A DNA stretch of 64,000 bases. Source: Pseudacidobacterium ailaaui (GTDB taxonomy: Bacteria > Acidobacteriota > Terriglobia > Terriglobales > Acidobacteriaceae). The translations under genes and the position numbers were made by a program. Shown here one piece after another: positions 16,554 to 34,336 of the stretch (positions are counted from its first letter, which is position 1; each line of letters opens with the position of its first letter). The stretch spans positions 62,001 through 126,000 of the forward strand of contig NZ_JIAL01000001.1 of the NCBI RefSeq assembly GCF_000688455.1. The letters are read 5' to 3'. The notes beneath the pieces were generated by a model that searched no databases, was not told the DNA's origin, and saw only the letters and a list, made by a program, of their open reading frames with translations.

Positions 16554-16602
16554 TGCGCTCTCCGTATTCTGCTTCCGGTCCTGGTCGTGGAGAACAATTC
16601 CT

Positions 16603-16878
16603 TCATACACCACTACGGCGCAGAGGGAAAGAGCTTGTGGTATTCAACTCTTGCATAAAGGCTTCGACATCCTGTTTCCGATATCGCATCAACGGACCGA
16701 GCTTAACGCCGCGGATTCGCGGCGAGCGCCTCGTAGTGTGGTCCCGGACCCAACGTTCGGAGACGCCAAGCCTTACGGCAACTTGTCGGGCGTTCAATAG
16801 CGGCTCATCGTCGGTGTCCGACGACGTGGACGGCGATTCTTCTAAGGGATAGCGATTCTGCAGGATTGATGCGGCCAT
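16603..16878 (-). CDS. Excisionase-like helix-turn-helix DNA-binding protein
   Basis: This 91-residue protein has a MerR/AlpA-type winged-helix segment (LLNARQVAVRLGVSERWVRD, about residues 27-46) followed by VKLGPLMRYRKQDVEAFM. This is the usual form of excisionases and directionality factors that sit next to tyrosine integrases. It lies 50 bp upstream of the integrase on the same strand, so the two probably form one transcript. It would bend the attachment DNA and favour excision; that is inferred from family and position. Confidence 0.8.
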   Translation of the reverse strand: MAASILQNRYPLEESPSTSSDTDDEPLLNARQVAVRLGVSERWVRDHTTRRSPRIRGVKLGPLMRYRKQDVEAFMQELNTTSSFPLRRSGV

Positions 16879-19102: not shown

Positions 19103-21133
19103 TTATTCTGGCTGAATACCTGATTCGTTGATGACTTTCTGCGCTTCTGCAGGCCACTCTTTGTTCGCAACCAAATGGTCCTGGAGGATGAGACAGTCGC
19201 TTTCAGGAATCCAGCGTTCTCCGGTTTTGTCCGAATTGTGCCAGTTGCCGATGGCGCGATTGTCAGAGGTAATTTTCAAGGCGTAGAGCTTGCCCACTGT
19301 ATTGGCAAATAACCAGAAGCCCTGCGTCTCTACGACATTGTTCAGCAGGCGGATGTGCTTGCTGCCTTCATCCGTGTAGAGGCCGATTCTGTCTCCGAGA
19401 TCGAAAAGGTAGTTATTCCGGATAACGGTGCCTGGAGAAGAAGACAGATTGTAGATGGCCCCGCCATCGACGAAGTATTTCTTCACGCCATGTATGCGGT
19501 TATAGGCGACAAGATTGTTTCGCAGGATGGTCGGAGTCTGGAATACAGGATTGACTGTATAGCCATGCTGGTTGTCCCGGTAGTTCGGGTTACCGCCTTG
19601 ATCGTTATAGCCCCATCCCCATCCAATATCGATGCCGTCATACATCAGGTCTGAGACATCGTTGTGAACAATCTCAGCCCCATCAAAATATGTGCTGAGG
19701 ATGCCGGCGTTGTCTTTGTAATCCAGGCTGACAGTGCTGACATAGTTGTTGTCAATCATCAGATGACGGTTAGTCATGCGCGGATCAGACGGGTGATGAG
19801 CGTCCTTTTGAACTCCACCTGCCAGGACCGCCGCGGCAGACAGAACTGCGAAGTGGCAGTGCGTAACGCGCACGCCATCAGTTCCCAAGCCAATTCCGCT
19901 TGCATTGGACCCGGCATCGTTACCGATCCCAAGCCCGACCATGCCGAGTTGGCTAAAGCTGTCGTGGTCGAATGTAACGTTATGCGCTGCGGCTACCTGG
20001 ATGGCTGCGGGAATCTGCGACCAGTGCTGGCGCATGGATTCAAATTCCACGCAGCCGCGATTGCAAGTCTGGAATGCGTTGCTGGGGTGTGTTGGAGCTA
20101 GGTCCTTAAGGTAGGCTCCGCTTTGCTGGCTTGCAAAGCCGGTATTTTCAGAAGGCCCAAGCCAGGTGGTGTAACGAAAGCTCAGCCCTTTGAATGTTAA
20201 ATTCTGTATCGGCTGCTTGTACGTGCCGGCAATGCTCAGCAATAATTGAAGGCGGGGCAGCATCACCGTAATATTATTGATGTCTCGATCTTCATCGAGC
20301 TTTACATAAAGCTTGCCCGCGTATGGATCGAGATACCAAAGATTGCGGTGAGGTTGTAGAACGTTCGGCTCCGACATGAGCTCCAGCGCATTGAGGAGAT
20401 AGAAATGCTTGCCGTTATTTCGCTTTGCCTCGCTGGGCACATCGTAGCCCCAGGTGTTATTCGCCCACGAGGGCTGCGCCATTTTCAGAACTACTCCATC
20501 AGTAGTGGGCTGAACGCTCTCAACCGGCGCATAGCGATCGGTGAAGCTCCCAAGCACTTCCAATTCCATTTGAGACGGATTTTTGACTTTACTGAGCCAG
20601 GCGAGATTGCGGTTGTGAATGATGAGCTCGTCTGACGTTATTTCTATGTCCTCTGTCTTGATCTCCTTCGAGGTGCGGTCTCCGAGAACTCCGTCGAAGT
20701 ACAACTGACGTGAATTAACGCCCGCAGGAACATCAGCTACATATATATGTTCCGCAGCCTTGTATACCTGCCAGCCGGTAACTCGAACTCCGCCGGAAAA
20801 TATGGGGTGCGCTCCTGACGCAGCCTGCCATGTGACGTGATGGCTGCCCTGTCCTCCATCTTCGGAACGAAAATTCAGCGGGGCATCGAGAGAATATGTA
20901 CCGTCTTCAATCAGCACGGTTACATCACTGGATGCATTCAAGGCGCGCACTGCGGTCTGAGCGCGTGCAACCGTCTGAAAAGGATGAGAACGGGTGCCGT
21001 CAGCGCCATCACTGCCATTGGTTGATACGTAAAGAGTCCTTGTTGTCTGCACATGACTGTAAACGGGCAGTACGGCAGTGTCACCCCCTAGGATGCAGAG
21101 GAGTGCCACGATTCGCTTTTGTCTCATCTTCAT
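19103..21133 (-). CDS. Secreted right-handed beta-helix protein (GH141-like carbohydrate-active enzyme)
   Basis: The 676-residue protein has a signal peptide (residues 1 to about 28, ending VYSHVQ) and the start TLYVSTNGSDGADGTRSHPF typical of secreted parallel beta-helix proteins. PIFSGGVRVTGWQ and SRQLYFDGV follow, a pattern seen in GH141-type glycosidases, and later coils carry repeated right-handed beta-helix strands (NNYVSTVSLDYKDNAGILST, RNNLVAYNRIHG). Catalytic residues cannot be assigned by eye, so GH141 is a suggestion. It would cut a plant-type polysaccharide or side chain outside the cell. It is the last gene of the minus-strand run begun by the TonB receptor, but a 194-bp gap and a degenerate regulon motif in front of it suggest it may also have its own promoter. 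Confidence 0.75.
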   Translation of the reverse strand: MKMRQKRIVALLCILGGDTAVLPVYSHVQTTRTLYVSTNGSDGADGTRSHPFQTVARAQTAVRALNASSDVTVLIEDGTYSLDAPLNFRSEDGGQGSHHVTWQAASGAHPIFSGGVRVTGWQVYKAAEHIYVADVPAGVNSRQLYFDGVLGDRTSKEIKTEDIEITSDELIIHNRNLAWLSKVKNPSQMELEVLGSFTDRYAPVESVQPTTDGVVLKMAQPSWANNTWGYDVPSEAKRNNGKHFYLLNALELMSEPNVLQPHRNLWYLDPYAGKLYVKLDEDRDINNITVMLPRLQLLLSIAGTYKQPIQNLTFKGLSFRYTTWLGPSENTGFASQQSGAYLKDLAPTHPSNAFQTCNRGCVEFESMRQHWSQIPAAIQVAAAHNVTFDHDSFSQLGMVGLGIGNDAGSNASGIGLGTDGVRVTHCHFAVLSAAAVLAGGVQKDAHHPSDPRMTNRHLMIDNNYVSTVSLDYKDNAGILSTYFDGAEIVHNDVSDLMYDGIDIGWGWGYNDQGGNPNYRDNQHGYTVNPVFQTPTILRNNLVAYNRIHGVKKYFVDGGAIYNLSSSPGTVIRNNYLFDLGDRIGLYTDEGSKHIRLLNNVVETQGFWLFANTVGKLYALKITSDNRAIGNWHNSDKTGERWIPESDCLILQDHLVANKEWPAEAQKVINESGIQPE

Positions 21134-21289
21134 GACTTTATCTTTATTCTTCCTGTTGAAACTGGATTCCTTTCTCTGAGTTGCACAGCAAAAAGCGGTG
21201 CTGCTGGAGTTGGCTGCTTGCAGGTGGCTTCGGCATGCCGCTTAATGTATCGATGCGAAGAATGATTGCGCTTCTCATTTTGGGGCTAA

Positions 21290-21310
21290 ATTCTTATCAT
21301 TTTTTTGCCG
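21290..21310 (+). promoter_or_regulatory. Degenerate copy of the regulon motif upstream of the beta-helix gene
   Basis: TATCAT (21295-21300) followed by TTTTTTGCCG resembles the motif TATCAyTTTTTGTCG, with one extra T and a T-to-C change. It lies about 160-180 bp upstream of the beta-helix gene start and has the same orientation relative to its target as the better copies. Weak taken alone. Confidence 0.4.
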
Positions 21311-21327
21311 CCCTAGCTTTTGACTCT

Positions 21328-22173
21328 TCAGCAGTCCATAGAGCACAAGCGGTTCCATAACTTCTGGATTTCAAGACGCAGTCTTTTGGCATCCTCCCAA
21401 CTATCAGGGAAAGTCGAAAGCGCATAGCCGCCTTCTACCGGGCCTAGTTCAGGGCAAATAAAAATTTCCCGTTCATGGTTCCGATTGTCGGCGAGCCAGC
21501 ACTCAAGCAGGGCAGAAGCAAAGGGAAGCCAGTCCAGAACCTCTTTTGTGAGCCCACCATCGCGGTTGGTGATGGGAATCTGAACATGATGGCCGTTGAA
21601 AGGACGGAAATGGAACTGTTGCGCGTTCTGGATCAGGTCAGGACGAACGAGGAGCCGCTTAACAAAGTTGTCCGGAACCAGATGCTTGACGACAGCGAAG
21701 TGGGAGAAGTCCCAGGAGATAGGCAGTAGCTGGCCGGTTGTCTGCTGGTACGCATTGGCCAGGGCATAGGTCTTTTCCGGTGTTTCTGTGCAGGTGCCGC
21801 GGTGCGATTCGATGGCAGGCAGCAAGCCCAGGCAATGACCCTCTTCCATGAGCGTGAGCGTTAACTGGAGAGCTTCAGCAGTGAGCACGTGGTCACCCGC
21901 GAGTTGAACATTCACATGGGTTGCGCCATACTGTTTGAGATCCTGTAGCAGACCGGGGAACGCAGAGGCCTGGTCTGAAGCCATGCCGCCAACAAAGATC
22001 AAACCCCTGCGCGTAGCAGCCTCATAGAGCTCAGGGCTTGGCGCCCAGCATACGCCATCAAAACCAGCTTCTTTGATTGCCTGTAGCTTTTCATCCAGGC
22101 TCCATTCGTTTTCCCGGGACGGATAGTGCATCAATGTCCACAGGTTTGCGATGTGACGCAGGATAGGCTTCAT
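21328..22173 (-). CDS. Sugar-phosphate isomerase/epimerase-like TIM-barrel protein
   Basis: The 281-residue protein fits the xylose-isomerase-like TIM-barrel family (AP endonuclease 2 fold): EKLQAIKEAGFDGVCWAPSP at the N-terminus, LLPAIESHRGTCTETPEKT in the middle, and ISWDFSHFAV and ICPELGPV later, which place Glu, Asp and His residues as metal ligands. No signal peptide is present, so it acts in the cytoplasm. It lies between the TPR gene and the beta-helix gene in one run, which suggests that it converts a sugar released by the locus. The exact substrate is not visible. Confidence 0.8.
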   Translation of the reverse strand: MKPILRHIANLWTLMHYPSRENEWSLDEKLQAIKEAGFDGVCWAPSPELYEAATRRGLIFVGGMASDQASAFPGLLQDLKQYGATHVNVQLAGDHVLTAEALQLTLTLMEEGHCLGLLPAIESHRGTCTETPEKTYALANAYQQTTGQLLPISWDFSHFAVVKHLVPDNFVKRLLVRPDLIQNAQQFHFRPFNGHHVQIPITNRDGGLTKEVLDWLPFASALLECWLADNRNHEREIFICPELGPVEGGYALSTFPDSWEDAKRLRLEIQKLWNRLCSMDC

Positions 22174-22287
22174 GACCAGAAAGACTCCTCATCGCCGCAA
22201 GGCGATTTCTGATAGTAGTTTGTTGTATAGATACAAGTTCTCAGAAATGTTCAGAGACATGAAGGCTAAATGGCTGGCAGCGGTGTT

Positions 22288-23547
22288 TTACGGATGAGCT
22301 TTTGTGCGAACTTCTGCCAAGGCTTGTCTCTGGTGGTCTTCCGCGATATATAAAGCTCGCTGTGCGGCGATATTTCCCGGGTCTTTTTGCAAAACTTCCT
22401 TAATCTCGGCGATTCCTTCACTCCAGCGATGGAGGCGGCAGAGCGCAAGGCCATAGTTCAGCCGAAAGCCTTCCTGTTCGGGGTTTAGTTCCAGGGCCGC
22501 GCGATATTTTTCTATGGCTTTGGCTAGCTCGTTCTGCCTCTCCATCTCTATACCCTCATCCTCAAGTCTTTGGGCTTCAAGAGAGTGTTTACCTGCCTCG
22601 TCTCCTTTTGCCGTCAGCGCCTTTACCTGGACCTGCAAATTCTTTGCTTCTTCTGTGAGGCCTTCTTTCCGGAGAGCTCGCTCCAGCTTGTAAAGTACTG
22701 CAACGGTTTCGGCGGGCATGTATTTGCGCGCCAGTTGCAGGTGGATAGCGGCATTATGTGCATCTCCCTGTGACAGATATTCAGAGCCTAATTCGTACTG
22801 CAATTCTGGATCGTGCGGAGCGTATGCGACCGCATGCTGAAAGGCTGCCAGGGCAGCGGCTTCATGATTTGCCGCTCGCTCAGTCCGCCCCAGAGCGAGC
22901 CAGGCTTCAGGATAGTCAGGCTTGAGTTTGGTAGCTGCGATGAGCTCTGGAATAGCTTTTTGCTCGTCGTCATGATCGGTGTAGATTTTTGCCAGCAAAT
23001 AATGAGCAGTGGCAGCGGCAGGGCCGGAGGGATCGAGTGAAATGGCAGATTGCAGCTCTTTCATGGCGCTAGGCATATCGTTGGTTGCCGCCAGCGTCAT
23101 GGCCAGATTGACATGCAGGCGCGCCTTTTGAGGATCGAGCACAATCGCCTGTTCGAATGCTTTGCGCGCTGCATCGAACTCCGCAAACCTGGTTAACGCT
23201 GTTCCCAGGGCAGCATAGGCCGAAGCTGAATCCGGGCGCAATTCGATCGCCCTGGTCAGATGTTGAATTGCTTCGGAACGCCTCCCCAGTAGCGCATTCA
23301 ACTGCCCAAGAAGCACAAGGGCATCTGTATTGTCAGGGTCTGATTGAAGCAGATTCTCAAGAACGAGAGATGCTTTGTCATAAGACCCGATGGAAAAGAG
23401 ATACTGTGCCTGACTTAACGGCGTATTTTGCGCATAGACCGGCGGGCAGAAACAAAGCACCGACAGCAGGAACAGAGACACACAAGGAAAAAGTGCGCTG
23501 CTTGAAAAGAGTTGAGATATTGCTTTGACCGGAAGGGATCGCCGCAT
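22288..23547 (-). CDS. Secreted/envelope TPR-repeat protein downstream of a TonB receptor
   Basis: This protein of about 419 residues has a signal peptide (ending PPVYAQ) and then about ten tetratricopeptide repeats (for example AYAALGTALTRFAEFDAARK and AWLALGRTERAANHEAAALA). TPR arrays form a helical scaffold for binding partners. ATG 23547 is chosen over 23577 because a GGAG site lies 7 bases before it and the signal peptide then starts naturally. The gene lies 89 bp downstream of the TonB receptor stop on the same strand, so the two are probably cotranscribed. The second receptor in this window is also followed by TPR genes. Confidence 0.9.
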   Translation of the reverse strand: MRRSLPVKAISQLFSSSALFPCVSLFLLSVLCFCPPVYAQNTPLSQAQYLFSIGSYDKASLVLENLLQSDPDNTDALVLLGQLNALLGRRSEAIQHLTRAIELRPDSASAYAALGTALTRFAEFDAARKAFEQAIVLDPQKARLHVNLAMTLAATNDMPSAMKELQSAISLDPSGPAAATAHYLLAKIYTDHDDEQKAIPELIAATKLKPDYPEAWLALGRTERAANHEAAALAAFQHAVAYAPHDPELQYELGSEYLSQGDAHNAAIHLQLARKYMPAETVAVLYKLERALRKEGLTEEAKNLQVQVKALTAKGDEAGKHSLEAQRLEDEGIEMERQNELAKAIEKYRAALELNPEQEGFRLNYGLALCRLHRWSEGIAEIKEVLQKDPGNIAAQRALYIAEDHQRQALAEVRTKAHP

Positions 23548-23636
23548 CCCGATACTCCAGGTGAAAGCAGCAGGCACCGGTTAAAGTGCCTGCCGCAGTA
23601 ATAGCGTTGAGAATCTGTTTCCATCCGGCAGCATAC

Positions 23637-26600
23637 TCAGAAGGATAACCGGAGCGCAAATTGAAGCTGACGCGGCGGATTCTCTATCGAAGAGACCCTA
23701 CCGAACCCACCGCCGTTGAGCGTAGTCCCTGGAGGCGCATAGTTAATGATGTTGAAGAGATTGAATGCTTCTGCCCGAAATTGCAGCGAAGCCTCGTCAT
23801 GTACGGGGAAGCTGCGAAAGACCGAGAAATCGAAAGTTGTGGCATGGTCGCTGAACAGGAAGTTACGCGGCGCGTTGCCATATTGATGGTCAGGTATGCT
23901 GAATGCTGCCGTATTGAACCACTCGTTCAAAGTTGGGTGAGAAAGATGCGGATTTCCAACCAGGTTGGCGCGTGCATAAGAATAAGGCGTACCAATATTT
24001 GCCACATCACCATTGACCAGAACGGTGAATGGCTGACCTGACCGGATGCTGAAGATGGAATTCGTCTGCCATCCTCCGACAATCCACGCAAGCGGCCCCG
24101 AATTCAAATATGTTTTACCGGGACCAAGAGGAGGCTCCCACAGCATGCTTGCAGAGAAGAAATGCGGCACGTCGAAGCCCGAGAGCCCCCGGTTGGAGTC
24201 TGGGTCATAGTAATTCTGGATGCCGCCTCCGGGGCCATTCTCCGCGCCGAAAAAACCGCTCGATCCGTTATCGATGGATTTCGACCACGTGTAAGAGACC
24301 AGATATTGCAATCCATTTCTGAAGCGCTTATTCGCATTGAGCTGTAGTGACTGGTAATTGGCAGCACCGATGCTTCTCCCGAAATAGAGAGAATTTTCGT
24401 ATGGATAGGGGCGTCTCGCGTTTACCTGGTCGGCATTGCCCGGACCAGGATAAAGCGCAGTGTTCGCTACACCTGTATAATCAAGATGATGTGTAGCGCT
24501 GCCTACATAGGCCATGGAAACTGCTAGGTCCTTGGTTACCTGGCGCTGAATTTCAAGATTCCACTGCTGCGAGAGCGGCACCTGCTTTTTGGGGTCTGCG
24601 TTCCAGTAATTGGTTCCCCATGGCGATGCTGCCGGGAGAGGCGCGGCGGAAAGCGTCTGCAAGTCCTGTAGATACGTGAGAGGCGCCCCAGTCGTCTGGT
24701 TGACTGCCAGGAAAGAGCTCTGCGCATCTGGCCAGTTGCCTACATGGTTGCCCATGTCCTGGATGAAGCCTGCATACTCGTCGTATACGATGCCGTAACC
24801 GCCGCGAATCACAGTTTCCGGATTGAGCGAGTAGGCAAAGCCGACATGGGGACCAATATTGGCATTCTGCGGGCAGCGAAATGATGCGCAGGAAGCAAGG
24901 GTAATGTGCTCTCCGTAAGGAATATTCGCCAGGTTCCCGTCACCTGGAATGCAGGGTGCTTTGCCGGTGGTGTTGCATGGTGGGGGCAGCTTGCTCCCAC
25001 CGATTACATACTCGCCGGTATTTGCATCAAAGCCACTGTAGAGGGCTCCGGTCAGGTTGCCGATCGGCTGTCGCTTGTCATAACGGAGACCCAGATTCAG
25101 CGTAAGTTTTTTTGAAACAGTCCATTGGTCCTGCGCATAGATGGCCCATATCGGGAAAGACATGCTCCAGTTCTGATTGAGAAATGCCTGCTGCGTCGGC
25201 AGGCCCAAGAGCGCTGATGCCAAAGATGCGCCAGTCGAGCCTACGTTATTCGGGTCGGCGGTCGTATCGTTGATGAAAGAGTAAGTCTGGTCAGAATACG
25301 CGCGGGTCTCGTACTGCTGCAGAAGCCACTGGAAGCCGAAGCTGAAATGATGATTGCCTTTGAGCCATGAGACATTCGCTCCGGTTTGATACACATGATC
25401 CTGCTGGTTGACCAGATTTTCACCCGCGCTCGACCACGGCATCTGCAGAACCAACTGTGGTATGCCATAGGTTGAAAGGCCCGAAAATCCAACTTGCTTT
25501 GCTGCGCCTGGACCGTTTGAAAAGAGCTTGTTCTGGATGATCGGTGTAGCCGAATACCCAAACTTTACGTCGAGGACCAGCGATGGGCTGAATTGATGAA
25601 TCCAGTCGCCACCTGTATTATTGCGCGGCCGGTCGGTGATAGTGTTCAGCAGGCGGGTTACCGGAGTTGTATCTGTATTATGAAAGCGCGTAAAGCGGCC
25701 ATTGATCACATCTTTTGGTCCAAGCGTTTCGTCGATCCTGACCTGATAGGTGTCGCTGTCATCTACCTGGGGCTCATCTTCGATGGCGTTATATTGAGGG
25801 ACAGCAGGATTGGAATAATTTGGCCGATCGACATATGCCTGAAAATACGCCTGGGCCATGATGGAGATTCTGTTCGGCGGGATAATGTTGTCGGAAAATT
25901 GCTGGCGAACGAATCCGCTTGGAGCGGATGAGCTGGCCGTCGTTGTTTTCGGATCGTAGATGTTATGACCGATTAGAGAATGAGAGAAGTCGCCGGACAA
26001 CTCAGCATCGGTGGGCACATAGTACAATGCCTGCGTCGCTTTTTTATAACGCCATCCTTCATAAGCAAAATAGAAAAATGTCTTTCCTTTGCCTTCATAT
26101 AGCCTAGGAATCCATACAGGTCCACCCAGCGTGGCTCCAAATTCATTCTGATGAAATGCTACAGGGCCGGAACGGTTAGCATCAGCAAACGGATCGCGGG
26201 CGTCGAAGAAGTTATTCCGCAGATACTCCCATGCTGAGCCGTGGAAGGCGCTGCTTCCTCCCTTGGACACGAGGTTGATAATGCCTCCAATCGCGCCTCC
26301 ATATTGGGCGTCATCGTTGTGTGACTGGACTTTGAATTCCTGCACGGCATCGACGATGGGCAGCACAGCATATCCGCTATAAATATTGACAGTGTTGAAG
26401 ATACCATCCAGATAGTAGAGGTTCGACCGGTTCCATTGCCCATTTACATTAGGGCGAAAAACGGGGCTGCCGGGAATCGTTACATCGGCAAGATAACTTG
26501 TTCCTCCACCTGCACCCTGCTGGTTCTGCACCGGTGTTACGCCTGGAGTGAGGATGAGAAGCTGGGTAAAGTTTCTTCCATTCAGCGGCAGATCGTTTAC

Positions 26601-27050
26601 CACTTTGGTCTCGATCACGGTGCCAAGCTCGGAGGTGGCTGTCTGGAGCTGAGGCGCCGAGCCTGTAACTTCCACCTGCTCTTCCACATTGCCGAGACTG
26701 AGCGTGTAATTGAGAGAAACGGTCTGGTTGACCTGGATTGGAATTGCCTGTTGTTCAACTTTCTTGAAACCCGCCGCAGTAACTACAATGGAGTAAGTGC
26801 CGGGCAGAATATTCGTGAAGACAAAGTGTCCATCCTGGTTCGAGAAAGTTTTTCGCTCAACTTTCGTATCGTTGCTGGAAAGCGTGATGGATGCCTGAGG
26901 AATGGCTGCTCCTGAAGGATCAGTAATCGTTCCATTCATCTCCCCTGTCGAAGTCTGCGCCATGATAGCAACTGGGGATAAGAGCAACATACCTGCTGAG
27001 AGTAAGAGTCCATTACACAAAGTTATTTTTAAACGTTCTGCTTTATGCAT
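23637..27050 (-). CDS. Oar-like TonB-dependent receptor with carboxypeptidase-regulatory-like domain
   Basis: An outer-membrane transporter of 1,137 residues. A signal peptide (ending VAIMAQ) is followed by a carboxypeptidase-regulatory-like domain (GEMNGTITDPSGAAIPQASI, about residues 35-120), then a plug domain (VVNDLPLNGRNFTQLLILTP) and a long beta-barrel ending in the aromatic LQFALRLSF. This layout is characteristic of the large receptor families of Acidobacteria. The start is set at ATG 27050 because AGGAGGA lies about 10 bases before it; an upstream GTG-type start at 27083 lacks this. It probably imports glycans or their fragments. It heads the run receptor, TPR, isomerase, beta-helix, and a regulon motif lies about 205 bp upstream. 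Confidence 0.93.
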   Translation of the reverse strand: MHKAERLKITLCNGLLLSAGMLLLSPVAIMAQTSTGEMNGTITDPSGAAIPQASITLSSNDTKVERKTFSNQDGHFVFTNILPGTYSIVVTAAGFKKVEQQAIPIQVNQTVSLNYTLSLGNVEEQVEVTGSAPQLQTATSELGTVIETKVVNDLPLNGRNFTQLLILTPGVTPVQNQQGAGGGTSYLADVTIPGSPVFRPNVNGQWNRSNLYYLDGIFNTVNIYSGYAVLPIVDAVQEFKVQSHNDDAQYGGAIGGIINLVSKGGSSAFHGSAWEYLRNNFFDARDPFADANRSGPVAFHQNEFGATLGGPVWIPRLYEGKGKTFFYFAYEGWRYKKATQALYYVPTDAELSGDFSHSLIGHNIYDPKTTTASSSAPSGFVRQQFSDNIIPPNRISIMAQAYFQAYVDRPNYSNPAVPQYNAIEDEPQVDDSDTYQVRIDETLGPKDVINGRFTRFHNTDTTPVTRLLNTITDRPRNNTGGDWIHQFSPSLVLDVKFGYSATPIIQNKLFSNGPGAAKQVGFSGLSTYGIPQLVLQMPWSSAGENLVNQQDHVYQTGANVSWLKGNHHFSFGFQWLLQQYETRAYSDQTYSFINDTTADPNNVGSTGASLASALLGLPTQQAFLNQNWSMSFPIWAIYAQDQWTVSKKLTLNLGLRYDKRQPIGNLTGALYSGFDANTGEYVIGGSKLPPPCNTTGKAPCIPGDGNLANIPYGEHITLASCASFRCPQNANIGPHVGFAYSLNPETVIRGGYGIVYDEYAGFIQDMGNHVGNWPDAQSSFLAVNQTTGAPLTYLQDLQTLSAAPLPAASPWGTNYWNADPKKQVPLSQQWNLEIQRQVTKDLAVSMAYVGSATHHLDYTGVANTALYPGPGNADQVNARRPYPYENSLYFGRSIGAANYQSLQLNANKRFRNGLQYLVSYTWSKSIDNGSSGFFGAENGPGGGIQNYYDPDSNRGLSGFDVPHFFSASMLWEPPLGPGKTYLNSGPLAWIVGGWQTNSIFSIRSGQPFTVLVNGDVANIGTPYSYARANLVGNPHLSHPTLNEWFNTAAFSIPDHQYGNAPRNFLFSDHATTFDFSVFRSFPVHDEASLQFRAEAFNLFNIINYAPPGTTLNGGGFGRVSSIENPPRQLQFALRLSF

Positions 27051-27254
27051 TCGTTTTGCGTCCTCCTGAACACGGCCTGACATGCCTTAGTAAATTGCGA
27101 GCGATGACGATGCTGACAATCACCGCTACGGGAGCAGAACCAGGGTAGTGATGCAGCAGCACAAGGATTCTTCGGTGCGTTTGCGAGGCTCGTCCTGATT
27201 CAGTTGAGCAATATACAAACCGCATATAAAGGCAGGCTTCTCATTTTGTCTGTG

Positions 27255-27275
27255 AGTTGATATCACTTTTTGTCG
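27255..27275 (+). promoter_or_regulatory. Regulon motif copy 1, upstream of the TonB receptor
   Basis: The core TATCACTTTTTGTCG (27261-27275) preceded by AGTTGA is identical in its core to copy 2 at 28635-28655. It lies about 205-225 bp upstream of the TonB receptor start and reads on the opposite strand to that gene, the same orientation as the other copies relative to their targets. A likely binding site for the AraC-family regulator encoded at 29527-30345. Confidence 0.65.
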
Positions 27276-27371
27276 TTCGCGGATGAGGCAAAACCGGAAA
27301 GTTGTACCGGATGGGACTAGAAATACATTGGCGGTTAAGGTTCTCCAGGGGAAAAGCCAGGAGGAGTCAAC

Positions 27372-27545
27372 ATGCCGAAGAAACAGCACACAGATGAACA
27401 GATCATCTTCGCGCTCAGGCAGCATGAGGGCGGCGAGAAGACGGCTGATATCTGCCGCAGGCTGGACGTCAGTCAGGCTACTTTCTACCTATGGAAGATC
27501 AAGCTCGGGAGAACCTTGACCACCAAAATCTCCAGTTACCGCTGA
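27372..27545 (+). pseudogene. Truncated IS3-family transposase OrfA remnant
   Basis: The first 47 or so codons (MPKKQHTDEQIIFALRQHEG, then GEKTADICRRLDVSQATFYL) match the helix-turn-helix N-terminus of IS3-group OrfA proteins, with a good AGGAGGAG ribosome site before the ATG. After WKIKLGR the sequence leaves the family and stops at 27545 (57 codons). OrfB and inverted repeats are not visible. It is a dead scrap of an insertion sequence. Confidence 0.8.
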
Positions 27546-27758
27546 TCCAGAAATTCGGGGCGTCTCTCAACCACGAGCACTCTCACTTACCCGGACTAAA
27601 CCAAGGGGGCGGCTCAAAAAGATATTTCAAAAGTGATAAGAACCAGTGGTATTTGCCAGAAAGGGAGAAAGCCATGCCGGTAAAGAACCGGCATGGCATA
27701 GAGGGGGCAGGCACGTTAACGTCAGACCGAAGCACTGGCGAGTGCTGCCGGGGATGTA

Positions 27759-28580
27759 TTACACTGCCTTCTTCTGCGCGTCCGGGAATGGCCCGTACTT
27801 TTCAGCCGTATCGTTTGCATGATCGTAGATATTTTTCCCGTTCTTCAGAAAAGGAGTTGCCAGTGCCCACAGCTTGCCATCAGGCCGATTGATAGGCGCG
27901 GCACTGTATTGCGGCAGATAGATGCGCCGCATGCGATTGGTCCGGTTTGCTCCGCTGCGGTGAAGGACAAAGCTATCGAAGGCGACAATACTTCCAGCCG
28001 GAACGATCACTGGATCGCCAGGATCGGTTCCACTATAGCCAATGAGGTCGTTTGTTCCTTCTTCCTTGATATGGTCGATAATCTGCCCGCGTGTTCCCGC
28101 GCGCGAATGGGGCAGCAGATACACGGTGCCGTTCTCCTCGTTGACATCGTCGAGAGTGCACCAGCAGGTGACGTAAGGATCATGCCTAGTTGATGGATCG
28201 TACCATTTCACGTAGCCACTATCCTGATGCCATGAGAATTTCATGCCCTGCTCGGCGCCCTTGACAACCCACTGTTCGTGAAAGAGATAGGCTTCTGGTC
28301 CCACTGTAGCTTTTGCCACTTCGGCCATCAGGTCACTGAAAATAAACTGCCAGATGCGACTGCTCAACCGGTATCGGTTGTTGATGAAGTACCGCTTGCC
28401 GCGATGGCTCAAGTTGTCGGTTTTTACTCCTTTGGCATCCATGATTGAGTCATAGTAGCCAAGGTAGTAAGAGCATTCCTCGCGCAACATGGAGAGCATG
28501 TCCTGAGGAATTACTCCAGGAAGCATCATAAAGCCTTCCTGGCGGTATTGTTCCCTTTGTTCTGCGGAAATCGTAATCAT
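27759..28580 (-). CDS. Phytanoyl-CoA dioxygenase (PhyH)-family Fe(II)/2-oxoglutarate oxygenase
   Basis: The 273-residue protein has the double-stranded beta-helix signature of PhyH enzymes: the iron facial triad HQD (in KFSWHQDSGYVKW) with a distal His (in FVLHRSGAN) and an Arg nearby for 2-oxoglutarate. It would hydroxylate a small molecule in the cytoplasm; the substrate is unknown. ATG 28580 is chosen because the residues after it (MITISAEQREQYRQEGF) match the family. The longer frame to 28871 would add about 97 residues unlike the family and overlap the SDR gene. It is divergent from the SDR gene, and the motif at 28635-28655 lies 55-75 bp upstream, so it probably belongs to the regulon. 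Confidence 0.87.
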   Translation of the reverse strand: MITISAEQREQYRQEGFMMLPGVIPQDMLSMLREECSYYLGYYDSIMDAKGVKTDNLSHRGKRYFINNRYRLSSRIWQFIFSDLMAEVAKATVGPEAYLFHEQWVVKGAEQGMKFSWHQDSGYVKWYDPSTRHDPYVTCWCTLDDVNEENGTVYLLPHSRAGTRGQIIDHIKEEGTNDLIGYSGTDPGDPVIVPAGSIVAFDSFVLHRSGANRTNRMRRIYLPQYSAAPINRPDGKLWALATPFLKNGKNIYDHANDTAEKYGPFPDAQKKAV

Positions 28581-28634
28581 GACAATATGCAATGTATCGA
28601 AATTGATGGTTCTCGGGCTTCTCACTTTTCGACA

Positions 28635-28655
28635 AGTTGCTATCACTTTTTGTCG
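28635..28655 (+). promoter_or_regulatory. Regulon motif copy 2, between the PhyH and SDR genes
   Basis: AGTTGC (28635-28640) followed by TATCACTTTTTGTCG (28641-28655) differs from copy 1 at one position in 21. It lies 55-75 bp upstream of the PhyH start, a normal place for an activator site, and about 107 bp upstream of the SDR gene on the other strand. Confidence 0.65.
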
Positions 28656-28761
28656 CGGAACGTTGCTTTTTCTGTCCTGCGGTGTGATTCCTTCGAACCT
28701 GGCGGGAGTCTGGTTTGATGTACTCTTGAGGTGGTCCAGATAACTTTCAACAGGAAGACGC

Positions 28762-29517
28762 ATGAGCACAGTAGATACTTCTCGTACAGCATTGGTAACG
28801 GGCGCCTCTCGTGGGTTGGGCGCAGCCATTGCGATAGAACTGGGAGCCATCGGAGCGAAAGTCGCCGTCAATTATTTCCAGAGTAAGACTGGAGCAGAGC
28901 GGGTCTGTGAGCAGATCAAGGCAAAAGGCGGAACGGCCCAAGCCTTTCAGGCTGACGTGCGGTGCGAAGATGAAATTGCGCGGTTGACAGATCAGATCAG
29001 TAAAGCTTTTGGCAGCATCGATATTCTTGTGCTCAATGCGACTGGCCCGCAGCCGCTTCTTTCCATCGAAGAGCAGACTTGGGAGTCCTATCTCGATCAG
29101 CTGATTTTTTTTGTGAAGTCTCCATTGCTGCTGCTCAAGAGCGTGCTGCCGGCAATGAAGCGGAAAGGCTTTGGAAGAGTCATCAATATTGGCAGCGAAG
29201 TTGTAGAGCTTGGCAATCCGCGGTTTGCCAACTATGTTTCGGCCAAGGGTGCGCAACTGGGACTGACCCGCTCCTGGGCGCGCGAGCTTGCTCCTGCGGG
29301 CATTACCGTGAACCTGGTAGCGCCAGGCTGGATTCCCACGGAACGTCACACGGATGCAACGCAGGAAGAGATGGACAGCTACACGTCGAATGTGCCGATG
29401 CAGCACATGGGAAATCCAGAGGCTGTAGCGAAGATGGTGGCTTTCCTTGCTGGGGATGGCGCAGGCTTTATCACCGGCCAGAAGTTTGCCGTCAACGGAG
29501 GCAACACGCTGCTGTAA
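28762..29517 (+). CDS. Short-chain dehydrogenase/reductase
   Basis: The 251-residue protein is a classical SDR: NAD(P)-binding TGASRGLG at residues 14-21, NATG in place of the usual NNAG, catalytic Ser in NIGSEVVEL, and YVSAK with the catalytic Tyr and Lys. LVAPGWIPTERH follows. It would oxidise or reduce an alcohol or carbonyl group, perhaps on a sugar acid or on the product of the neighbouring PhyH enzyme. The substrate is not known. It is divergent from PhyH and convergent with the AraC gene. Confidence 0.9.
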   Translation: MSTVDTSRTALVTGASRGLGAAIAIELGAIGAKVAVNYFQSKTGAERVCEQIKAKGGTAQAFQADVRCEDEIARLTDQISKAFGSIDILVLNATGPQPLLSIEEQTWESYLDQLIFFVKSPLLLLKSVLPAMKRKGFGRVINIGSEVVELGNPRFANYVSAKGAQLGLTRSWARELAPAGITVNLVAPGWIPTERHTDATQEEMDSYTSNVPMQHMGNPEAVAKMVAFLAGDGAGFITGQKFAVNGGNTLL

Positions 29518-29526
29518 GTTCCCCGT

Positions 29527-30345
29527 TTACCGAGGAGGTCTGATCTGCCGGTATTGCATGGGAGAATACCCCATGACGTGCTTGAACACTCTGTGAAATT
29601 GCGGGTAACTGCCAAAGCCAGCTTCAAGCGCTGCTTCCAGCATGTTCTGACGCTGGCCTGTCCCATAGATCTGTAGAAATCGCTCGACGCGTTGCCGATT
29701 GCGGAAATCGACGATAGTGAAACCGGTTTGCTCCTTGAACAGCCGGCTGAGCCGAGTGGCACTGAGGCCGGCCTGATGAGCCAGATCATCAAGAGTAAGG
29801 TTGCCGAGAGTGTCACGAATAAGATGGGCGGCTCGTTCTACGGCAGGATGCACATCGCGCACTGGAACATCGCGGGCCCTTTCAAAGCTGAGCCATGAAG
29901 AAAGCAATCCATACGAGAGCCCGGCATTTAGAAAATTCGTCTGCTCCGATGCATTGCAGAGCTCCGTAAACAGATCTTCAAGCCGGTCCAGGTCATGCTC
30001 GGCGAGGCGGCGGCAGAATTCTCCGGCCGGCTCTTTTTGAAGAAGTATGCGGGTTTTTGCGTCGTTTGCGATTCGCCGCACCATGCGTCGCTTGAAGACG
30101 CCGATCCACATTTCGAAGTCCGGTGTCTGCTCAAAGAGCAGGTGCTCCTGAGCGGGGAACAGCCACAACAGGTCTCCGCGCCGTATGCTGTAGCGCCGGT
30201 TTCCGAGGAGGTACGTACCGCTTCCGCGGGTGACAAGGTTCAGCTCCAACTCGGCATGGTGATGCCGCTTATGGGCGAGCCCAAGGTTACGATAATGCCA
30301 GATGCTTCCGTCTACTTCTGGCGGGAGGTTAAGATGTGTACGCAT
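29527..30345 (-). CDS. AraC-family transcriptional regulator of the carbohydrate locus
   Basis: The 272-residue protein has an N-terminal cupin sensor domain (HHHAELELNLVTRGSGTYLL) and two C-terminal helix-turn-helix motifs (LTLDDLAHQAGLSATRLSRL and MLEAALEAGFGSYPQFHRVF) typical of AraC/XylS activators. The start is taken as ATG 30345. The longer TTG start at 30366 would place the regulon motif inside the gene. It is divergent from the GPH symporter, and the motif at 30348-30368 lies right before its own start, which suggests autoregulation together with activation of the symporter and GH31 genes. The inducer is probably a sugar, which is an inference from its neighbours. Confidence 0.9.
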   Translation of the reverse strand: MRTHLNLPPEVDGSIWHYRNLGLAHKRHHHAELELNLVTRGSGTYLLGNRRYSIRRGDLLWLFPAQEHLLFEQTPDFEMWIGVFKRRMVRRIANDAKTRILLQKEPAGEFCRRLAEHDLDRLEDLFTELCNASEQTNFLNAGLSYGLLSSWLSFERARDVPVRDVHPAVERAAHLIRDTLGNLTLDDLAHQAGLSATRLSRLFKEQTGFTIVDFRNRQRVERFLQIYGTGQRQNMLEAALEAGFGSYPQFHRVFKHVMGYSPMQYRQIRPPR

Positions 30346-30347
30346 AG

Positions 30348-30368
30348 CGACAAAAAATGATAACAATT
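30348..30368 (-). promoter_or_regulatory. Regulon motif copy 3, between the AraC gene and the symporter
   Basis: On the minus strand AATTGT is followed by TATCATTTTTTGTCG, one base different in the core from copies 1 and 2. It ends 2 bp before the AraC start and lies 101-146 bp upstream of the symporter start (depending on which start is used). Relative to the symporter it has the same orientation as copies 1 and 2 have relative to their targets. Confidence 0.6.
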
Positions 30369-30493
30369 TAATGGAGAAATGAGAAGCCTGTTGCAGGCAG
30401 TCGTCATTTAGAGTTTCCGGTAGGGGGGAAGCTCTGCGAATTGATGCCTGCCAGGCTCAATACCAGGAAGTGACTCAGGAAGTCTCCGGAGTT

Positions 30494-31855
30494 ATGAAGA
30501 ATTCCGTCCTCACGACACGCCTCAGCTACACTGCCAGCGAGGTCGCCGGGCAGCTTATCTTTTGTGTCGTCTCCTTTTATCTGCTCAAATTTTATACCGA
30601 TGTCTACGGAATATCCGCGGCCGCGGCAGGCACAATTCTGTTGCTGGCGCGTTCTGTCGACGCCATTGATGCACCATTATGGGGGATTCTTTTTGATAAG
30701 ACACATAGCCGCTGGGGAAAGAGCCGGCCATGGTTTCTCTGGCTTTGCGTGCCTTTTGCTTTCTTCGGCGTGCTCACTTTTGTAACACCGAGTTTTGGCG
30801 CAATGGCAAAAGTTATCTATGCGGCAGCTACCTACGTGGTCTGTAGCATTCTCTATACAGGAATCAATACTCCTGTTACTTCTATCCTCTCCGCCCTGAC
30901 CGGGGATACCCACGAACGGATTACACTTACCAGTTTCCGTATGTTCGGGTCGAAGCTAGGGGTGCTGATTGTTAACCTGACCGTCCTGAAAATGGTTACA
31001 TGGCTAGGGCGCGGGAATGACCGCCTCGGATTCATGCTTGTTATGCCCATGTATGCCTGTGGAACGGTTCTGCTATACCTGCTCGCCTTCCGTAATTTGA
31101 AGGAAGTCGTAACGAGCGAAAAACATCGCCTCTCGATCCGGCAGAGTTTTGCCGCGCTCCATGGAAATGGGCCCTGGTTCATCATTTTCTTCAGCAGCTT
31201 TTTCTTCTGGATTGCATTCGTCTCGCGCATCTCGGCGGCTCCCTACTTTTTTCAGTACGTGCTTCGCCGCAAAGATTTGATTTCTGTGGCGAACAGCCTG
31301 GATGTGATATCGCTAGCCACGATTGTTCTTCTACCGTGGTTCTGCCGGCGATTTACAAAGCGCACAGTGTGGGTGGCCAGCCTTGCGGGGGCGATTGTGA
31401 GCCAGGTCGTAATCCAGGCTGGGGTTGCAGAATCATCGTCCGCGATTGTCATGACCGGGTGGTCTCTCGGGTTCCTCACCAGCGGCGTAGCAATGGCGAT
31501 ACCGTTCTCGACCCTTTCTGACAGCGTGGATTACGGAGAGTGGAAACGGGGTGTTCGAGCCGTTGGTCTGCTCACCGCACTGGGTGCGGCATTTTGCCTG
31601 AAGGCAGGAAGCGGCCTGGGAGGAGCGTTGCCGGCATGGATTCTCAGCTGGTATTCGTATGTGCCGAATGTGGAGCAAACGCAGCGCTCGCTCCACGGCA
31701 TTGAATTGAGCTTTATCTGGCTCCCGGCGCTTTGCTACGCACTGGCGGCGATTCCTGTGTTTTTTTACTACCGATATGAATGCCTTGAGCTAAGGATCCG
31801 CAAGGAGCTTGAGCAGCGCCGCTCCATGGCTACAGCGATCAGCAGCAGCGTATAA
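30494..31855 (+). CDS. GPH-family (glycoside-pentoside-hexuronide) cation symporter
   Basis: The protein of about 453 residues (ATG 30494; a GTG at 30470 is also possible) has about 12 hydrophobic membrane segments. GPH features include RSVDAIDAPLWGILFDKTHS early, with the DP(A/L)xG-like box, and the central loop GVRAVGLLTALGAAF. It would import a glycoside or sugar with H+ or Na+. The GH31 gene starts 12 bp after its stop, so the two are one operon. The pair has the same makeup as E. coli yicJ (transporter) and yicI (alpha-xylosidase). Divergent AraC regulator and motif copy 3 lie upstream. Confidence 0.9.
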   Translation: MKNSVLTTRLSYTASEVAGQLIFCVVSFYLLKFYTDVYGISAAAAGTILLLARSVDAIDAPLWGILFDKTHSRWGKSRPWFLWLCVPFAFFGVLTFVTPSFGAMAKVIYAAATYVVCSILYTGINTPVTSILSALTGDTHERITLTSFRMFGSKLGVLIVNLTVLKMVTWLGRGNDRLGFMLVMPMYACGTVLLYLLAFRNLKEVVTSEKHRLSIRQSFAALHGNGPWFIIFFSSFFFWIAFVSRISAAPYFFQYVLRRKDLISVANSLDVISLATIVLLPWFCRRFTKRTVWVASLAGAIVSQVVIQAGVAESSSAIVMTGWSLGFLTSGVAMAIPFSTLSDSVDYGEWKRGVRAVGLLTALGAAFCLKAGSGLGGALPAWILSWYSYVPNVEQTQRSLHGIELSFIWLPALCYALAAIPVFFYYRYECLELRIRKELEQRRSMATAISSSV

Positions 31856-31867
31856 ACCGGAGAGTGC

Positions 31868-34336
31868 ATGTTTGCCATTGAAAGCAGCGATGAATTCGCC
31901 GTGCTCACATCAGAGACTGGACACCGCCTGCGTATTGGGTTTCCGGGCGAATCAATTGCCCGCATTACCTATGTGGAAAGTCAGGAGTTCAGCGATGCGA
32001 CGAGCAGGATCGTTACAGCCGAAAAGAAGTACTTTGCGCCCGCAATCAGCGAGGATAGGGGCTGCTATTACCTAGCTGTACCAGCCTTGACGCTGGTTGT
32101 GGACAAGCAAACCGGGTCTATCCGCTACCAGGACGCAAGGGGCAGGCTGCTGTTCCGCGAGCCTGAGCGCGGCGGCAAGTGGCTTACGCGGAAGAAGATT
32201 TATCGCAATGTCTTTAAGCCAAACAAAGAAATTACCTATGGGCTTGGGATTGATGGCGCGCGGGCCATTGTTTCTCCGGATGAAACAGTGTTTGACCGGG
32301 AGGCTTTTGAAGCCAAGCTAGAATTTGTTTTCAGCAAGGGTGAAGCACTTTTCGGCCTTGGCTCTCATGAAGAAGGCTATGGCAACCTGCGCGGCAAATC
32401 ACGCGAGCTGTATCAGCAGAACATGAAGGCAGTCGTACCGTACTTTGTGTCTTCGCGCGGATATGGAGTGCTCTTTGATTGCTGCTCGCTCATGACATTT
32501 CACGATGATGCGCTGGGCTCCTACCTGTGGGCGGATGTGGTGAATGAGCTTGATTTTTATGTTATTGAGGGGAAGACGTTCGACGAGATTACACGCCACT
32601 ATTATGAGCTGACTGGCAAACCTCCTATGCTGCCCAAGTGGGCTCTGGGATACGTGCAATCGAAGGAGCGGTATGTGAATGCGCGCGAGCTTGTGGACGT
32701 GGTTAGCGAATACCGGCGCCGCCGCATTCCTCTTGATGTCATCGTGCTTGATTGGAAGTCGTGGCCGAACGGTGCGGGTTGGGGGCAGAAGTCGTTTGAC
32801 ACAATTCGCTTCCCCGATCCGGATGCCATGACGTCAGAGCTGCATGCCATGGGCGCTCGGCTGATGGTGTCGATATGGCCAATTATGACGGGCGGATGCT
32901 CCAATCAGATGGAATTGCTTGATCGCGGCCTTATGCTGGGCAATCAATCGACATACAATGCCTTTCTTGCAGAAGCACGCGAATGCTACTGGCAGCAGGC
33001 CAGGAACGGGCTCTTTGATCATGGCGTGGATGCGTGGTGGTGCGATTGCACGGAACCTTTTGAGGCGGACTGGGCTGGTGCAGTGAAACCGGAGCCGCAC
33101 GCCCGGCTTGCGATCAATACGCAACAAGCGAAGCGATATCTCGATGAAGGTGAGATCAACGCATATTCTCTCATGCACTCACAATGCATCTATGAGGGGC
33201 AGCGCAGGGCAACAAGCGCGAAGCGCGTTGTCAATCTAACAAGGTCCTCATATGCGGGACAGCACCGCTACGGCACGATAACGTGGAGCGGCGATATTTG
33301 CGGTACATGGGAGACGCTGCGGCGCTCTATCTCCGAAGGCTTGAATTTCTGCGCGACCGGTGAACCGTACTGGACGCTCGATATCGGCGGCTTTTTTATC
33401 GATAACAAGCGGGAGCTATGGTTCTGGCGAGGAGACTATTCCGAGGGTTGCCGCGGTATTACCGGTATGGAAGCGATGGAGCCCGATCCTGCCGATACAG
33501 GCTGCCGTGATCGTGGCTATTGGGAGCTCTACACGCGATGGCTGCAATATGCAGTCTTTCTGCCGGTGTTCCGCTCTCATGGAACAGACGCAGCGCGTGA
33601 GATATGGCGTTTCGGTGAGGAGGGCACTCTTTTCTACGATGTCATTGCGGAGTTCATCCGGTTGCGCTACAGGATGATGCCTTATCTGTATTCGCTTATG
33701 GCCCAGGTCACCCTCTCGGGTTCGATGATGATGCGTCCTTTGGCGCTGGATTTTCCCGATGACCTGAAGACGCACGAAATTACCGATCAGTATCTTTTCG
33801 GGCTGTCGCTTCTGGTCTGCCCTGTCACGACGCCCATGTACTATGGCCGGAACTCGCAGCCGATTACAGACACTTCTAAAACGCGGCCTGTGTATCTTCC
33901 GGCAGGGCATCGCTGGTTCAACTTCTGGACGAATGCTGTGTATGACGGGGGGCAAACGATTTTGGCTGATGCTCCGATCGAGAAAATACCCCTCTATGTG
34001 CGCGCAGGCACGGTTTTTCCGATGACAGAAGTGATGCAGTATACCAGCGAGATTCCGGATGCAGCATATGAAATACGAATCTACTGTGGGGCCGATGCCA
34101 GCTTCACCATCTACGAAGACGATGGCGATGGGTATGACTACGAAAGAGGGGCATTTGCCCTGGTTCATCTCGTGTGGAATGAAACACCGGGAGACCTTCT
34201 CATTTCTGCGCGCGAAGGCCAGTTTCCTTCTCTCGTGAAAGAGCGCGATTACAGAATAGTCTTCATCTCAGCTTCAGACTCCTCCATAAAAACAGTGCGA
34301 TATCGAGGAGAAGAGGTTTGCGTCAGCATTGCATAA
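31868..34336 (+). CDS. Glycoside hydrolase family 31 (alpha-xylosidase-like, cytoplasmic)
   Basis: The 822-residue protein has an N-terminal beta-sandwich domain and a GH31 (alpha/beta)8 barrel. The nucleophile is Asp393 in WWCDCTEPFE, and the acid/base is probably Asp476 in TWSGDICGTWETLRRS. HGTDAAREIWRFGEE and the distal beta domains follow. It has no signal peptide, so it cleaves an imported oligosaccharide in the cytoplasm. GH31 enzymes include alpha-xylosidases and alpha-glucosidases; the C-x-E-P context and the pairing with a GPH symporter favour alpha-xyloside, but this is not decisive. It starts 12 bp after the symporter stop (GGAGAG before ATG) and ends the AraC-regulated plus-strand unit. 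Confidence 0.92.
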   Translation: MFAIESSDEFAVLTSETGHRLRIGFPGESIARITYVESQEFSDATSRIVTAEKKYFAPAISEDRGCYYLAVPALTLVVDKQTGSIRYQDARGRLLFREPERGGKWLTRKKIYRNVFKPNKEITYGLGIDGARAIVSPDETVFDREAFEAKLEFVFSKGEALFGLGSHEEGYGNLRGKSRELYQQNMKAVVPYFVSSRGYGVLFDCCSLMTFHDDALGSYLWADVVNELDFYVIEGKTFDEITRHYYELTGKPPMLPKWALGYVQSKERYVNARELVDVVSEYRRRRIPLDVIVLDWKSWPNGAGWGQKSFDTIRFPDPDAMTSELHAMGARLMVSIWPIMTGGCSNQMELLDRGLMLGNQSTYNAFLAEARECYWQQARNGLFDHGVDAWWCDCTEPFEADWAGAVKPEPHARLAINTQQAKRYLDEGEINAYSLMHSQCIYEGQRRATSAKRVVNLTRSSYAGQHRYGTITWSGDICGTWETLRRSISEGLNFCATGEPYWTLDIGGFFIDNKRELWFWRGDYSEGCRGITGMEAMEPDPADTGCRDRGYWELYTRWLQYAVFLPVFRSHGTDAAREIWRFGEEGTLFYDVIAEFIRLRYRMMPYLYSLMAQVTLSGSMMMRPLALDFPDDLKTHEITDQYLFGLSLLVCPVTTPMYYGRNSQPITDTSKTRPVYLPAGHRWFNFWTNAVYDGGQTILADAPIEKIPLYVRAGTVFPMTEVMQYTSEIPDAAYEIRIYCGADASFTIYEDDGDGYDYERGAFALVHLVWNETPGDLLISAREGQFPSLVKERDYRIVFISASDSSIKTVRYRGEEVCVSIA

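Follow-up and report, generated by a model that had tools for sequence, protein, structure and literature searches.

Gene content and a shared promoter element

We analyzed a 64,000-nucleotide stretch of the Pseudacidobacterium ailaaui genome (hereafter, the window), in which a set of predicted carbohydrate genes surrounds the gene for an AraC-family regulator and carries four copies of a promoter element, the predicted operator of that regulator. From a short motif shared by several of these promoters, the initial annotation had proposed an AraC-controlled carbohydrate regulon. The genes concerned are as follows, in window coordinates.

19103-21133, minus strand: GH141-like glycoside hydrolase with a right-handed beta-helix (match to BT_1002, E = 4.2e-41; catalytic Asp pair kept)
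21328-22173, minus strand: TIM-barrel-like protein, encoded beside araC in relatives (65-74% identity across six loci; "TIM barrel" read by eye)
22288-23577, minus strand: TPR protein (family search)
23637-27083, minus strand: TonB-dependent receptor (CarboxypepD_reg / OMP_b-brl_4; family search)
27759-28580, minus strand: PhyH-type Fe(II)/2-oxoglutarate oxygenase (PF05721, 1.4e-21; H118-x-D120 and H207 invariant)
28762-29517, plus strand: SDR oxidoreductase between PhyH and araC, of uncertain regulon membership (family search)
29527-30345, minus strand: AraC-family regulator (PF00165, PF12833 and PF02311 above cut-off; orthologues)
30470-31855, plus strand: GPH-family sugar symporter (TIGR00792, 4.4e-110, above cut-off)
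31868-34336, plus strand: GH31 glycosidase of the alpha-xylosidase (BoGH31A/Xyl31A) group (structure-relative and family matches)

The motif of the initial annotation, TATCACTTTTTGTCG, was recovered exactly at 27261-27275 (+) and 28641-28655 (+) and with one change at 30348-30362 (-), and it has the same orientation relative to the TonB receptor, PhyH, GPH symporter and beta-helix genes. Its description as a 21-bp asymmetric site had to be replaced: the 15-bp motif forms the distal half of a larger element (41 bp), which as a whole is a direct repeat of 40-41 bp with two half-sites. Read towards the downstream gene, it consists of CGACAAAAARTGATAnCAA, a linker of 8 or 9 unspecified nucleotides, and AAARTGAGAAGCC. 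In all four window copies, 15 or 16 bp separate RTGATA from RTGAGAAG, and the repeat RTGATA/RTGAGAA keeps a spacing of 21 or 22 bp in all 11 sites compared. A fourth copy had been reported before the beta-helix gene as a degenerate one; the copy is indeed there, but it is a full site with both halves and a few departures from the consensus. The beta-helix gene stays among the predicted targets, with its identity refined to a GH141-like enzyme. The four predicted operators, with profile E values for the window, are:

21269-21309, minus strand: copy 4, upstream of the GH141-like beta-helix gene (both half-sites; E = 1.6e-10)
27235-27275, minus strand: copy 1, upstream of the TonB-TPR-TIM unit (E = 2.4e-11)
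28616-28655, minus strand: copy 2, upstream of PhyH (E = 2.9e-11)
30348-30388, plus strand: copy 3, between araC and the GPH gene (E = 2.6e-12; position conserved in orthologous loci)

By itself, the 15-mer with three mismatches allowed is not rare in the window, where four occurrences were observed against 1.25 expected and 4 of 100 shuffles reached four. The unfiltered profile scan of the window, by contrast, returned the four full copies at E values of 1.6e-10 or lower, and the next match had an E value of 0.16. The flanks of the four copies are dissimilar (17-39% identity), which argues against their descent from a longer, recently duplicated repeat and favours selection for the element itself.

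Distribution of the element in the genome and in relatives

The whole genome was searched with sequence patterns and with a profile, R1. The bipartite pattern AAAARTGATANNAAN{11,12}RTGAGAA gave four matches in the 3.69-Mb genome, all at the four operators, while the reversed-pattern control gave none. R1 returned the same four sites and no others up to E = 10. The motif is therefore not scattered at random across the genome; such scatter would have spoken against the initial annotation. The core alone, TATCAYTTTTTGTCG, with at most two mismatches, has five copies in the whole genome, three of which are window copies. The other two, in segments L004 and L005, were treated as chance matches; the one in L004 lies inside a coding frame, and neither was reported by R1.

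The comparison set comprised 300 related genomes, including the window's own, plus a Verrucomicrobiia metagenome-assembled genome (L014). An AraC orthologue was found in 7 of the 300, namely the window's own genome and six others in which it is 57-64% identical. R1 matched exactly these seven genomes and none of the remaining 293, so that the second pattern that might have undermined the proposed regulon, the motif in relatives lacking the araC gene, was not seen with this profile. The PhyH orthologue has the same distribution (the same 7 of 300). The Verrucomicrobiia genome encodes an AraC orthologue (64% identical) and likewise carries PhyH and, in the corresponding position, the operator; additional core matches there, with one or two mismatches, were rejected as unsupported by R1. 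The presence of the unit with its operator in two phyla suggests that the switch was transferred along with the genes.

Conservation is concentrated in the element and in the part of the regulator expected to read it. Identity across seven orthologous promoters is 94% and 88% in the two half-sites, compared with 31-35% in the linker and spacer, and 57-64% of the positions in the AraC recognition helices are invariant versus 35% for the whole protein. In three relatives (G175, G187 and G207), C replaces the T of RTGATA. The distance from the operator end to the araC start codon is 2 nt in five genomes and 14 nt in two (G187 and G207); in G175, araC and the operator lie at the ends of different contigs.

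The gene order around the site differs between the window and its relatives. In G064, G066, G157, G187 and G207, the genes form one operon in the order site-PhyH-GPH-GH31-beta-helix (GH141) with araC divergent, and in G064, G066, G157, G175 and the Verrucomicrobiia genome the TIM-like gene is convergent to araC. In the window, these genes fall into four separate units, PhyH, GPH-GH31, beta-helix and TonB-TPR-TIM, with one operator per unit. With the predicted operator kept on each piece, this fragmented operon offers a clear natural case in which regulation has outlived the structure of the operon. The window's TonB and TPR genes have no close counterpart in the relatives' unit and appear to have been recruited.

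Several neighbouring features were also recorded. A remnant of a transposase first open reading frame (HTH_Tnp_1) lies at 27372-27509 (+), between the TonB promoter and PhyH, and is possibly a trace of the rearrangement behind the operon split. Some 2.5 kb beyond the end of the regulon lies a phage-type integrase gene, 15276-16613 (-), possibly the sign of a mobile region. At 35898-39560 (+), another TonB-dependent receptor from the same family is encoded; TPR genes follow it downstream, and it has no operator copy. In L014 (9106-18173), the partners of the operator-bearing AraC-PhyH-TIM core are sugar-acid dehydratases, an SDR, an RraA-like aldolase and an MFS transporter in place of GPH, GH31 and GH141; the core recurs there in a second phylum and within a different pathway context. 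Segment L004 of the window's own genome (1-841, near G000:C1:340.7 kb) contains at least six tandem copies of a 133-bp unit with 98% matches; open frames run through the copies, and the repeat adjoins a Replic_Relax-like gene.

Predicted regulation by the AraC-family protein

The regulator combines a C-terminal domain with two helix-turn-helix motifs (PF00165, 7.7e-21; PF12833, 1.9e-17; both above cut-offs) and an N-terminal AraC_binding cupin (PF02311, 41.6 bits against a cut-off of 21.1). Its likely start codon is an ATG with its first base at 30345, 2 nt from the end of operator copy 3, in agreement with the earlier statement that this copy touches the araC start. Identity with the arabinose regulator was rejected (NCBIfam NF007860, 86.5 bits versus a cut-off of 208). 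Each operator-bearing promoter has a -10-like hexamer at a nearly fixed distance:

21244-21249, minus strand: TACATT, GH141-like gene, 22 bp after TGAGAA
27210-27215, minus strand: TATATT, TonB unit, 22 bp after TGAGAA
28591-28596, minus strand: TACATT, PhyH, 22 bp after TGAGAA
30409-30414, plus strand: TAGAGT, GPH-GH31, 23 bp after TGAGAA

A TAnAnT hexamer lies exactly 22 bp after TGAGAA in 9 of the 11 sites and 23 bp after it in a tenth. No -35 consensus was seen at the operator-bearing promoters and, together with the fixed -10 distance, this suggests that the proximal half-site covers the -35 region. With its start about 10 nt downstream of the -10 hexamer, PhyH would have a nearly leaderless mRNA. 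Read on the opposite strand, the operator gives a sigma70-like TTCTCA-16/17-TATCAY with the araC start within about a dozen bases in most loci, and bound AraC should therefore cover its own promoter.

We consider it highly probable that the AraC-family protein encoded at 29527-30345 uses all four sites as its operators, with class-II-like activation and autoregulation, and the predicted regulon is very probably real; genome-wide exclusivity and co-occurrence both support this proposal of the initial annotation. We infer that AraC physically binds the sites, that it activates rather than represses, that it regulates its own gene and that it responds to a ligand. Direct repeats of about 21 bp are typical of the AraC family, in which ligand activation through the N-terminal cupin is the usual mode, and class II AraC promoters have the proximal half-site over the -35 region. 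Each operator would be a direct repeat of an AraC half-site with 21 or 22 bp spacing, its proximal half (RTGAGAAGCC) standing in place of a -35 box and the -10-like TAnAnT following 22-23 bp further on. Once it has bound its ligand, probably a substrate-derived sugar, AraC would sit on the repeat and bring RNA polymerase to the promoters of TonB-TPR-TIM, PhyH, GPH-GH31 and the GH141-like gene. On the same operator, AraC would repress its own almost leaderless gene (negative autoregulation).

Several points weigh against this interpretation. R1 was trained on most of the sites that it found, and its positives are for that reason partly built in; the independent parts of the test are the 293 negative genomes, G175, which was not among the training sites, and the pattern controls (G207 was omitted from training as nearly identical to G187). 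The sample comprises eight orthologues, a small number, and some of them are related, G187 and G207 being nearly identical. The Verrucomicrobiia promoter has no recognisable -10 hexamer at the expected spacing. One pattern match, in G255, occurs in a genome without an araC gene; it was rejected as an operator, as it lacks the CGAC part and was unreported by R1. Direct binding by AraC is itself a prediction, and co-occurrence alone cannot distinguish it from binding by a different factor that is linked to the PhyH operon. Because PhyH is distributed identically, co-occurrence does not single out AraC, and another regulator travelling with that operon could give the same distribution. We regard such a regulator as improbable, given that no DNA-binding protein other than AraC was recognised in the conserved set and that the spacing of the repeat is the one familiar from its family.

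The remaining alternatives differ in what the element would do. AraC might bind the sites and chiefly repress the four units until an inducer releases it; the operator does span the promoter region, and two modes are known for many cupin AraC proteins. We nevertheless judge this unlikely: about 19 bp separate the end of the proximal half-site from the -10 hexamer downstream of it, and this half-site replaces the absent -35 box while leaving the -10 free, a layout that fits activation. That the motif is a mere sigma70 promoter towards araC (TTCTCA-N16/17-TATCAY) and no operator is very improbable. The hexamer spacing is suitable, and in five of the seven measurable loci 2 nt separate the end of the element from araC, but in that direction neither copy 1 nor copy 4 is followed by a gene to be transcribed (copy 1 faces a transposase remnant, copy 4 a convergent gene), the half-sites are conserved whole, beyond the hexamers, and nothing else in the genome shares the element. 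The adjacency of the transposase remnant to copy 1 might also suggest that the copies derive from a mobile repeat, as its ends or as fragments of it; with unrelated flanks, no further copies in the genome, and a site that keeps the same place in seven other genomes, the probability of this is practically negligible.

AraC-family regulons with direct-repeat operators are a long known kind of system. Our search of the literature, to which subscription journals were mostly outside scope, found no report of this regulon, and comparative genomics here provides a well-defined predicted operator and regulon for an AraC-family protein.

Candidate substrate and comparison with known systems

The enzymes of the predicted regulon give some indication of its substrate. 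GH31 aligns with BoGH31A (E = 2.3e-142), including the WWCDCTEP and WSGDI blocks, and keeps the catalytic Asp positions; its closest solved relatives are alpha-xylosidases, from which its specificity is predicted. The presence of a 2-oxoglutarate oxygenase and a GPH symporter brought a sulfoquinovosidase-type GH31 into consideration, but this was rejected (YihQ, 3.9e-17, versus 2.3e-142 for the alpha-xylosidase). The GH141-like protein matches BT_1002 over residues 27-616, while PF21231 (GH141_M) scores 20.1 bits, below its cut-off of 27. The active-site residues used for comparison are those of BT1002 (PMC10154630 and PMC12786026), whose catalytic Asp pair is D523/D564 (PMC10154630); with a chain numbering offset of 5, as judged from the 41-residue interval, D556 and D588 of the window protein align with this pair, and the BT1002-type Gln is also kept. 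BT1002 releases 2-O-methyl-D-xylose-alpha-1,3-L-fucose from chain A of rhamnogalacturonan II (RG-II) (PMC10154630), and GH141 also includes a xylanase and fucanases (PMC12786026). The nearest solved relative of PhyH is EvdO2 (E = 1.7e-12). The TIM-like protein had no match in family-library searches, and two-row alignments of PhyH and of the TIM-like protein gave structure predictions of no use (mean pLDDT 36 and 45).

Neighbouring genes in the relatives encode GH28, GH95, alpha-L-rhamnosidase, glucuronyl-esterase-like, D-threonate-kinase-like and PdxA proteins, with GH28, GH95 and the rhamnosidase nearby in relatives only. In the Verrucomicrobiia locus, an SDR (28% identity) lies near the TIM gene, and sugar-acid dehydratases and an RraA-like aldolase are also present. 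Beside the unit in G066, L012 (1543-7210) carries D-threonate-kinase-like and PdxA-like genes, a sodium symporter and an iron alcohol dehydrogenase, and similar genes were seen by eye in G064 and G157; the L012 gene set suggests a C4 sugar acid as an intermediate.

Judged from these sequence matches, pectin is a plausible substrate, possibly an RG-II fragment from chain A, but in view of the xylanase and fucanases in GH141 this is a hypothesis. A more specific reading, a pathway dedicated to the disaccharide 2-O-methyl-D-xylose-alpha-1,3-L-fucose, is possible but doubtful. The GH141-like enzyme would release the disaccharide, GPH would import it and the GH31 alpha-xylosidase would split it; PhyH would attack, perhaps O-demethylate, the methylated xylose, and AraC would sense the methylated sugar. 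Bacteroides thetaiotaomicron is not known to cut this disaccharide linkage; a literature search on that point and on methyl-xylose demethylases returned nothing usable. If the reading is true, the regulon would supply an enzyme for that linkage together with a novel oxygenase-catalysed conversion of a methylated sugar. The operators would tie an alpha-xylosidase-type GH31, a GH141-like enzyme and a PhyH oxygenase into one pathway, possibly for a rare methylated pectin side chain.

Among known systems, E. coli AraC (araI1-araI2, araBAD) offers the closest regulatory parallel to compare. The window regulator is likewise an AraC_binding and two-helix-turn-helix protein with its best NCBIfam score to arabinose AraC, the half-sites are about 21 bp apart with the proximal one at the -35 region, and the regulator gene is divergent and apparently autoregulated. 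In contrast, the half-site is different, araC is almost leaderless, no distal looping site was detected in the window system, and the predicted targets are GPH, GH31, GH141 and PhyH genes rather than araBAD. In Bacteroides RG-II utilization (BT1002, GH141), no less than here, a GH141-like enzyme with both catalytic Asp residues and the Gln is found, and pectin enzymes (GH28, GH95 and rhamnosidase) stand beside the unit in relatives; unlike that system, the window unit has no recognised SusC/SusD pair and includes an AraC regulator, an alpha-xylosidase-type GH31 and a PhyH oxygenase. E. coli yicJI shares the succession of a GPH symporter and a GH31 alpha-xylosidase-type enzyme with no obvious signal peptide. 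However, the window GH31 is nearer to BoGH31A/Xyl31A (E = 2.3e-142) than to YicI (1e-37), and the window adds PhyH, GH141-like and TonB genes together with a dedicated AraC.

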